Assembly (NCBI GenBank): GCA_030611015.1 | Contig: JAUWQP010000005.1 | Span: 1-35,628 of the forward strand | Source of the DNA: Chloroflexota bacterium | GTDB lineage: Bacteria > Chloroflexota > Dehalococcoidia > GIF9 > AB-539-J10 | Direction of reading: 5' to 3' | Length of the DNA: 35,628 nucleotides | Shown here: positions 9,038 to 34,160 of the stretch, one piece after another | Numbering within the stretch: the stretch's first letter is position 1 | Layout of the letters: every line of letters starts with the position of its first letter | Position numbers and translations under genes: made by a program | The notes under the pieces: model-generated | Database searches by the model: none | What the model saw: the letters and a program-made list of their open reading frames with translations, nothing else | Told to the model about the DNA's origin: nothing

Positions 9038-10744
9038 TCACAGCTCTGCTAGCTCTTGGAGAACAGCTAGCACTTCCTTTTGAGGTACATCAGCACGAAT
9101 TATCACTTTACCGATATCTTGTAACAGCACCCAGCGAATTGCTTTTTCTTTCACTTTTTTATCCAGTTCCATGGCACCAGTTACCCCGGCAAGGCTCAAT
9201 CTGAGATTGCTTCGCTTCGCTCGCAATGACGTGGGTAAGCCGAATTTCTGTAATAGGGCTTGTTGGCGCTCCACTACCGCTGAAGGCAAAAGACCTAATC
9301 GCTGACTGAGCTTGGCGGCTCCCACCATGCCAATGGCTACCGCTTCGCCATGAAGAAAGCGCTTATACTGAGTAGCCGCCTCTAATCCGTGAGCGATGGT
9401 ATGTCCATAATTTAGAATGGTGCGTTTCCCTTCCCTTTCTTTTTCATCCTGGCTGACGACCTGAGCCTTGATAGCAGCACTACGGGCAATAGCTCGGGTA
9501 AGCAACTCCGGCTCTAGTTTTGTCAGCCCATTAACATTGCTCTCCAGAAATTGAACAAATTCCTCATCAAGAATCATGCCATGCTTGATAACTTCAGCCC
9601 AGCCTGAGGTCAGCTCACGCTGAGGCAAAGTGGTAAGAGTCTGACAGTCAGCCAAAACCAGGTCAGGCTGATAGAAGGCACCAATAAGGTTTTTTCCCTC
9701 AGGATGATTAACCCCGACCTTACCCCCGATGCTGGCATCAACCATGGCTACCAAACTGGTCGGCATTTGTACCCAGAACATACCCCGTAAGAAGGTGGCA
9801 GCGACAAAACCCGCTAAGTCGCCTACCATACCGCCACCCAGGACGATGATAATGTCGTCTCGCTCCGCTCGATGCTCGACAAGGAAATCGTAAATCTTGA
9901 TAGCATAGTCCATGTTTTTCGTTTCTTCACCCGGAGGCACTACAAAGGAATTAACAGCAAAGCCAGCGTCCTTGAGAATTCCCACAACTTTGCTGCCATA
10001 AAGAGAGAAAACATTTTCGTCGCTAATTACGGTGGCTGTGCCAGATAGAGCAGCTTGCTTCATCTTCTCGCCCAGCTTGTCCAATAAACCATAGCCAACA
10101 AAGACAGGATAACTTTGAGTCGCAGTCTCTACCAGGCAAGCGATGTCTTTGTCAATGCCACTCCGTGCCTTTTCCCTGTCATTGCGAGGAGCGTAGCGAC
10201 GAAGCAATCTCCAAGCCCTTATTACCTCCTCTACTACCTGGCTGATGTTTAGATTGTCGGTATGAACCGTCCAGTCAACATTAGCGTAGTAAGGCTGCCG
10301 GGAGGCTTTAAGCTGCCTGATACGTTCCAAAGGGTTATCGTTAGCTAAAAGGGGGCGAACTTCGGTTTCAGGACTGTAAGCAGCCTCCTGGAATAAGCGC
10401 TCATAGATTGTCTCAGGTTTAGCCTCCAGGCAAACAATTAACCCGGTTTTGGCAAGCAACTCATCGTTTTGCGGGTCAACTATGGCACCGCCACCAATAG
10501 CTATGACTGTCTGCCTTTGCTGGCAGGCTTTTCTAATCGCCTCGCGCTCCAGTTCCCTGAACTTGCCCTCCCCATCCTGACGAAAAATCTCGGCGATAGG
10601 CTTGCCAGTTTGTTTAACTATCTCATCATCGGTATCAAGAAAATCCCAACTTAATCCCCGGGCTACCTCTTTAGCCACCAGAGATTTACCGGTGCCTGAG
10701 AAACCTGTGATAATGAGATTGCCCATTCGCCTGTCCAATTTCAT
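9038..10744 (-). CDS. aroKB: Fused shikimate kinase / 3-dehydroquinate synthase
   Basis: N-terminal AroK (GFSGTGKSLVAKEVARGL...DTDDEIVKQTGKPIAEIF...AIGGGAIVD) continuing in frame into AroB (PPGEETKNMDYAIKIYDFLVEHRAERDDIIIVLGGGMVGDLAGFVAATFLRG...LNYGHTIAHGLEA). Confidence 0.95.
   Translation of the reverse strand: MKLDRRMGNLIITGFSGTGKSLVAKEVARGLSWDFLDTDDEIVKQTGKPIAEIFRQDGEGKFRELEREAIRKACQQRQTVIAIGGGAIVDPQNDELLAKTGLIVCLEAKPETIYERLFQEAAYSPETEVRPLLANDNPLERIRQLKASRQPYYANVDWTVHTDNLNISQVVEEVIRAWRLLRRYAPRNDREKARSGIDKDIACLVETATQSYPVFVGYGLLDKLGEKMKQAALSGTATVISDENVFSLYGSKVVGILKDAGFAVNSFVVPPGEETKNMDYAIKIYDFLVEHRAERDDIIIVLGGGMVGDLAGFVAATFLRGMFWVQMPTSLVAMVDASIGGKVGVNHPEGKNLIGAFYQPDLVLADCQTLTTLPQRELTSGWAEVIKHGMILDEEFVQFLESNVNGLTKLEPELLTRAIARSAAIKAQVVSQDEKEREGKRTILNYGHTIAHGLEAATQYKRFLHGEAVAIGMVGAAKLSQRLGLLPSAVVERQQALLQKFGLPTSLRAKRSNLRLSLAGVTGAMELDKKVKEKAIRWVLLQDIGKVIIRADVPQKEVLAVLQELAEL
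9203..9231. repeat. Short palindromic dispersed repeat inside the aroB domain
   Basis: GAGATTGCTTCGCTTCGCTCGCAATGACG; encodes LRAKRSNL in frame. Confidence 0.8.
10176..10211. repeat. Short palindromic dispersed repeat at the aroK-aroB junction
   Basis: CCTGTCATTGCGAGGAGCGTAGCGACGAAGCAATCT; encodes RLLRRYAPRND in frame. Confidence 0.8.
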
Positions 10745-17972: not shown

Positions 17973-18454
17973 TGCTCCCCTTTCCTGAGGCTATCGAGAT
18001 AACCCTGGAGAATAAAAGCCGCTGCTATGGCATCTACCTTGGCTTTAGGCTGAAAGTTGTAATTTGGGGCTCCTCTTTTTGCCCTGGAGCGCAGTCTTTT
18101 TCCCTTGCCACCGGCCTCTATCTTTAATCGCTCCGCAGCCCTGGTAGAGAAGCGTTCATCCCATAGTTGTACATCAAGCTGGTTGAAATTGCTTCGCTTC
18201 GCTTGCCATGACAGCTTGTCAGTGAAAGTTGTTACCTTACTAGCTTGTTTACCAAGCTCGCCATTCAAGCGGCGAGGCAGGCCAACTACAATACGCTCCA
18301 CCTCATATTGCTCCACCAGTTTGAGAATCACATCTACAAGGACATCTTCGTCTTCACTGTCGAGCACGCTTAGAGGGGTAGCCAAAATCCCCTGGGGGTC
18401 GCATATTGCTACGCCAGTTCTCTTATCTCCGATATCCAGCCCTAAGCTGCGCAT
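17957..18454 (-). CDS. ruvX: YqgF/RuvX family Holliday-junction resolvase-like protein (start re-assigned)
   Basis: MRSLGLDIGDKRTGVAICDPQGILATPLSVL, RIVVGLPRRLNGELG, LWDERFST, KVDAIAAAFILQGYLD. The upstream 31 codons in the ORF track come from a dispersed repeat. Confidence 0.88.
   Translation of the reverse strand: MRSLGLDIGDKRTGVAICDPQGILATPLSVLDSEDEDVLVDVILKLVEQYEVERIVVGLPRRLNGELGKQASKVTTFTDKLSWQAKRSNFNQLDVQLWDERFSTRAAERLKIEAGGKGKRLRSRAKRGAPNYNFQPKAKVDAIAAAFILQGYLDSLRKGEQCRDT
18186..18213. repeat. Short dispersed repeat inside ruvX
   Basis: AAATTGCTTCGCTTCGCTTGCCATGACA; encodes SWQAKRSNF in frame, near-identical to the aroB copy. Confidence 0.75.
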
Positions 18455-33690: not shown

Positions 33691-33742
33691 TATTGGTTCA
33701 GTTGTTTTCGGGCAAATCGGCTATGATAAAATGTTACCACTC
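33691..33742. repeat. Direct repeat copy 1
   Basis: TATTGGTTCAGTTGTTTTCGGGCAAATCG (33691-33719) identical to 34111-34139, followed by a similar AAAATGYTACCACTC tail. Confidence 0.9.
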
Positions 33743-33938
33743 TCCTCAGTTCTCCTCAAGTCCTTGTCCTTGTTCACGAATCTAATTTCTTTCTTGCCGC
33801 TGTTCACCTCTTTTCTATAATTAGGCTGTTTAATTTTTATTTTCGGTTCGGTTTCGGGTGTTTTGGCATCCCTGCAGGGCAGCATTTCACATATCGCCAC
33901 CTTGGCGGGGAATAAAACCCCACCCTACGAAGTGTTCC

Positions 33939-33962
33939 AAATTTTGTAGTGCGACCCTTCAG
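33939..33962. repeat. Inverted copy of the 1664-1687 repeat
   Basis: AAATTTTGTAGTGCGACCCTTCAG. Confidence 0.75.
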
Positions 33963-34009
33963 AGCCTATCCCAACCCCGTATCGAGTGCGAGGTAAGGTG
34001 CAGCCGGGA

Positions 34010-34110: not shown

Positions 34111-34160
34111 TATTGGTTCAGTTGTTTTCGGGCAAATCGAGAGCCAAAATGCTACCACTC
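34111..34160. repeat. Direct repeat copy 2
   Basis: See 33691-33742. Confidence 0.9.

Follow-up and report, generated by a model that had tools for sequence, protein, structure and literature searches.

A dispersed short repeat in the interdomain linker of a fused aroK-aroB gene from an uncultured Dehalococcoidia bacterium

In the window considered here, i.e. the whole 35,628-nucleotide stretch of contig JAUWQP010000005.1 that was analysed, the genes for shikimate kinase (aroK) and 3-dehydroquinate synthase (aroB) form a single open reading frame, and a short repeat lies between the two encoded domains. Such a position raises the question of whether the repeat created the fusion or entered a gene that was already fused. 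The second answer is very probably the correct one, the repeat, designated family A, being a dispersed element that invaded the linker when aroKB was already a single gene and that resembles selfish DNA in the way proteins put up with it. The source genome, from an uncultured member of the Dehalococcoidia, measures 1.79 Mb in 116 contigs, with 88.6 % completeness and 6.7 % estimated contamination.

The fused gene and the repeat in its linker

As defined by the list of open reading frames, Pfam and TIGR01357, the fused gene aroKB occupies 9038-10744 on the minus strand and encodes 568 amino acids. The shikimate kinase domain comprises residues 17-177 (10214-10696, minus strand; Pfam PF01202, 139.6 bits), and the 3-dehydroquinate synthase domain, as matched by the aroB model TIGR01357, comprises residues 212-561 (9062-10111, minus strand; 401.6 bits against a cut-off of 305). 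Pfam places SKI at 17-177, DHQ_synthase at 267-379 and DHQS_C at 381-531, and both domains are thus complete within one reading frame. Since 44 columns of the synthase domain are invariant in an alignment of 45 homologues, that domain looks functional. AroKB is presumably still active as a single polypeptide of ~62 kDa. The NCBIfam fusions PRK14021 and PRK13951 have the same order, kinase N-terminal and synthase C-terminal, and PRK14021 aligns with this AroKB over its full length; however, the scores fall below both curated cut-offs (313.7 vs 565 bits for PRK14021 and 227.9 vs 560 bits for PRK13951), which makes this a fused lineage apart from these two.

The linker repeat, TGTCATTGCGAGGAGCGTAGCGACGAAGCAATCTC, lies at 10177-10211, antisense to aroKB, so that the coding strand reads GAGATTGCTTCGTCGCTACGCTCCTCGCAATGACA and specifies RLLRRYAPRND (residues 179-189, R179-D189; minus strand). 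Its assignment as a long-form family A element draws on its coordinates, its copies in the genome and its relatives. Because the Pfam domains end and start on either side of it in one reading frame, the copy sits between the AroK and AroB domains, as the initial annotation had proposed. Family A, with the consensus GAGATTGCTTCG-N-CGCAATGACA, is short (29-36 bp, with 35 bp in the linker copy) and imperfectly palindromic, with ATTGC/GCAAT ends. Across 71 copies, its boundaries are GAG-ATTGCTTCG...CGCAATGA-CA, and the core is mostly 24, 30 or 31 nt long. The adjoining REKAR segment (residues 190-194; 10163-10177, minus strand), which follows the element on the coding strand and falls outside the A consensus, was delimited by alignment with relatives; it is missing from genome G015, and in G003 it is tandemly duplicated along with the end of the element. 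A slightly longer A unit is possible, since the flank of the copy in carA resembles the REKAR flank.

That the repeat belongs to a dispersed class, another proposal of the initial annotation, is borne out by its copy number. This genome contains 14 exact matches to the pattern ATTGCTTCGN(3-16)CGCAATGA vs 0 for a reversed control, and BLAST gives 20 matches to the element in the same genome, so the copies are not due to chance. Family A is also present in 43 of 60 relatives, reaching a maximum of 78 copies (G050) with the control at 0 throughout, these census figures being undercounts where copies carry several mismatches. A short-read misassembly at the repeat might, in a genome of 116 contigs with 6.7 % estimated contamination, have joined or padded the gene. 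This is scarcely credible, however, given that genomes assembled independently from other species (G012, G017, G009, G003 and G015) have the same element at the same codon, and that an element of 29-36 bp is shorter than usual reads and assembly words.

Relative age of the fusion and the repeat

A fused orthologue exists in most genomes of the same genus that have a match, in other genera of its family (f1), and in the sister families f2 and f4 of the same order. The f2 and f4 orthologues are 57-65 % identical and have linkers of 16-19 amino acids (linker length being measured from W178 to C) without a detectable A element. When each linker was scored for similarity to the A consensus, with shuffled sequence and the remaining windows of its gene as background, the linkers of g1, g2, g3, g14 and L047 outscored every background window of their own gene. 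The signal is weak in the linkers of L023 and L019; L031 and L038 are exceptions, and the background of L024 is not clean, because A copies occur elsewhere in its gene. Families f2 and f4, like fused homologues farther away, have linkers whose similarity to A is no higher than that of shuffled or background sequence. The fusion is therefore older than the A insertion and, because most f1 genera share the A signal in the same place and orientation, one old insertion is the simplest account, although many branches of the aroKB gene tree are weakly supported.

These comparisons bear directly on the initial annotation's proposal that insertion of the repeat over an old stop/start region created the fusion. 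The location of A exactly between the domains, together with the retention of separate aroK and aroB genes by some relatives within the order, is what that proposal has in its favour. Yet, besides the sister families that are fused without A, the separate genes, at ~40 % identity and ~1.5 kb apart, represent a distant lineage rather than a split form of aroKB. All three of the arrangements envisaged among sister genomes (fused with A, fused without A, and separate) were found, but no intermediate, and creation of the fusion by the repeat is accordingly highly improbable.

The companion suggestion, that the repeat lengthened the linker, fares better. The linker of this AroKB is 24 amino acids long vs 16-19 in element-free orthologues, with A encoding 11 residues, and the conclusion that it is partly repeat-derived and longer is supported. 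Relatives with clear elements have linkers of 17-32 amino acids, including 31-32 with a second element (B, below) and 31 in G003, which carries a 21-nt tandem duplication. The linkers of g2 and g3 are only 15 amino acids long although A-like; hence, the arrival of A may have replaced the old linker rather than simply added to it. The initial annotation had reasoned that element-free fused homologues sharing the same linker length and sequence would make the fusion older than the repeat and the linker not repeat-derived. The first half of that pairing holds; the second does not.

Tolerance and turnover of elements in two loops

The AlphaFold2 model of AroKB (mean pLDDT 87, pTM 0.65) assigns pLDDT values below 50 to residues 185-197, a stretch that follows the final helix of the kinase (167-182) and precedes the first strand of the synthase (201-206). 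In the course of events proposed here, a single A element would have arrived in, or early in, family f1, where it would have replaced or extended the old linker; the copy would survive in the disordered linker, where added residues do little harm, and insertions elsewhere, out of frame or gene-breaking, would be removed by selection. In-frame survivors are likely, since A, as read from its sequence, can be translated without a stop in five of six frames. Other elements later replaced A in some species.

A second family A element, absent from the initial annotation, lies within the same gene at 9203-9231 on the plus strand, in the short form and in the opposite orientation. Read along the coding strand of aroKB, these positions give SLRAKRSNL (residues 506-514). 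The peptide belongs to a loop in the C-terminal DHQS domain, here called loop 2 (501-517), which AlphaFold2 models as coil with lowered confidence. Loop 2 has 12 amino acids in element-free relatives within the order and 11-13 in distant fused homologues vs 18-65 where elements are present, i.e. 18 with A, 27-30 with an A-like element nested inside A, 56 in G025 and 65 in G011. The net change with the A copy is +18 nt, which is unequal to the length of the element. The 56-residue loop of G025 (L024) combines an A copy with one more insert, and the 65-residue loop of G011 (L031) contains tandem-looking units (SSREVPPL). The loop 2 copy is missing from G017 (L011), though present in its nearest relatives. 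Toward the 3' end of the G017 gene, identity to G012 drops from ~94 % to 75 %, and in that part the gene is 87-88 % identical to its element-free counterpart in G005; this shift from G012 toward G005 suggests that homologous recombination brought an empty allele into G017.

The linker insert, too, differs between species: it may be A, one of two other dispersed elements (B and C), a tandemly duplicated stretch or an additional insertion. Element B, HPHLNPLPSRERK in the linker, corresponds to a dispersed CACCCTNANCCTCTCCC...GGGAGAGG element with a control count of 0. Element C, read as DGCQLSAFSD or DSFQLSAFSD, is related to AGCTNTCAGCTTTCAGC, which is dispersed mainly in G023 and G025; C is the weakest case, because copies are few in the genomes that bear it. 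In both linkers B abuts the remnant half of an A element, which reads ATTGCTTCG...CACCCT in aroKB and GAAGCGAAGCAATCT in carA, an arrangement that would fit exchange at an existing copy rather than fresh insertion; L175 has a comparable A-B junction. It is possible, and offered tentatively, that such loops are standing landing sites at which unrelated elements displace one another, being exchanged by recombination or template switching at existing copies. One further aroKB, 88 % identical and with another linker insert, comes from a contig labelled Latescibacterota (L052, DAOVPH010000132.1), probably through a binning error.

The persistence of linker and loop 2 elements in many species, always with inserts in frame, might instead mean that the encoded peptide is kept because it is useful, e.g. 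for tuning linker length or domain contacts. That is unlikely, as the peptides are unrelated from species to species, vary in length (15-32 residues for the linker, 12-65 for loop 2), lie in the linker within a segment predicted to be disordered, and are lacking from loop 2 in the close relatives G017 and G005. Somewhat less likely still is an action at the level of DNA or RNA, such as a hairpin or transcript control, with the place in the gene being secondary. The imperfect palindrome with its ATTGC/GCAAT ends would suit such a role, and repetitive extragenic palindromes (REPs) are often thought to be RNA elements (PMC3733652). Against it, the single strands of both aroKB copies fold no better than shuffles (z-scores of 0.5 to 0.7), on which ground the hairpin idea was rejected, and an Rfam search returned two matches only, both far under threshold. 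Tolerated selfish DNA thus remains the preferred reading.

Copies in other genes and relation to known repeats

Eight of the 14 exact A copies in this genome are intragenic. Both aroKB and a DUF1015 gene contain a pair, whereas carA, pheT, hypF and miaB have a single copy; copies that match less exactly occur in nadB, nadC, ruvX and, again, hypF. Both the coding frame and the orientation vary between host genes (SLRAKRSN, VIATEAKQS, RLLRRYAPRND), and the use of several frames and both orientations implies that it is the DNA that spreads, with the peptides as by-products. The clearest instance is pheT (L122, L199-L223), in which same-genus alleles are either filled (VIASEAKQS, net +42 nt) or empty, with the flanking protein unchanged; inspection by eye revealed no clean target-site duplication, and the +42 nt is unequal to the length of the element. 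The carA element lies between the CPSase (9-134) and GATase (198-373) domains, i.e. also in an interdomain linker, and the carA linker (L119, L174-L191) has A in some species, B plus an A remnant in others and no element in more distant ones, thereby repeating the pattern of the aroKB linker. TAG stops were reported in three carA relatives; in two of these the stop sits at the C terminus of the aligned region (376/378 and 381/383), outside the element. The ruvX (yqgF) copy, at 18188-18211 of the window with two mismatches, is in frame and yields SWQAKRSN shortly before the conserved DERFST.

Rickettsia palindromic elements (RPEs) are dispersed short palindromic DNAs that occur in frame in genes likely to encode working proteins (PMC3733652). 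Family A is alike by description, being short, dispersed and palindromic, and as a multicopy family it likewise has in-frame copies in conserved genes with element-free orthologues. It differs in size (29-36 bp vs ~95-136 bp for families 4-7 of Rickettsia conorii; PMC2267715), in its host, an uncultured Dehalococcoidia bacterium, and in that unrelated families alternate here in the same loop. CGTC-type REPs offer a second comparison, for they are also short, with intragenic copies reported and a dedicated transposase not known, and they consist of a CGTC (or TGTC/CCTC) head, an AT-starting stem of 8-9 bp, a 4-5 nt loop and a CCA tail (PMC3733652). The head of A, TGTC followed by AT (TGTCATTGC at 10177, and the flank profile of the 71 copies), is an allowed variant; however, its outer stem runs for only 5 bp without interruption, short of the 8-9 bp of the type, and it ends in CTC instead of CCA (GAG when read on the opposite strand, where 86-99 % of the 71 copies share each base). 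Lacking that stem, that tail and better-than-shuffle folding, A is not claimed as a member of this type. A complete candidate transposase for A was not found in the genome, itself 88.6 % complete, the sole match being a 48-position hit to Y1_Tnp with no adjoining A copy; nor did this incomplete assembly contain the REP-flanked RAYT tyrosine transposase gene that characterizes GTAG REPs/REPINs. Literature searches by element sequence and by encoded peptides gave nothing relevant among the papers listed, and a search that covered little of the subscription literature yielded no paper describing elements of this kind in Dehalococcoidia.

On the best reading, the kind of event is already known from Rickettsia RPEs and intragenic REPs, and what is new is its occurrence in Dehalococcoidia, where more than one family has struck the same loops. 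The phenomenon of RPEs and REPs within proteins is thereby extended to a little-known uncultured lineage of Chloroflexota, which provides a natural experiment in which a linker and a surface loop of one enzyme have been rewritten many times, leaving filled, empty, nested and recombined alleles. Because these alleles occur in close species, it can be asked how selfish DNA enters proteins, whether loops are targeted or are merely where inserts survive, and how fast inserts turn over. For annotation, SLRAKRSN or RYAPRND in proteins of this group denotes a translated element and not a domain.

Several other copies and repeats were observed. The adjoining nadB and nadC genes (L006, 276-2721) have one in-frame A-like insert apiece. 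Element copies also lie at the 3' end of an ABC-ATPase reading frame (L007, ~1504-1533) and of a diphthine-ammonia-ligase-like one (L123, ~1551-1574), in both of which the TGA of ..CAATGA seems to be the stop codon. Within the window, a perfect 29-nt direct repeat occurs at 33691-33719 and 34111-34139, 420 bp apart, and a 44-nt inverted pair of 80 % identity (1647-1690 and 33936-33979) contains CGACCCTGAAGGGTCG, possibly another dispersed element.
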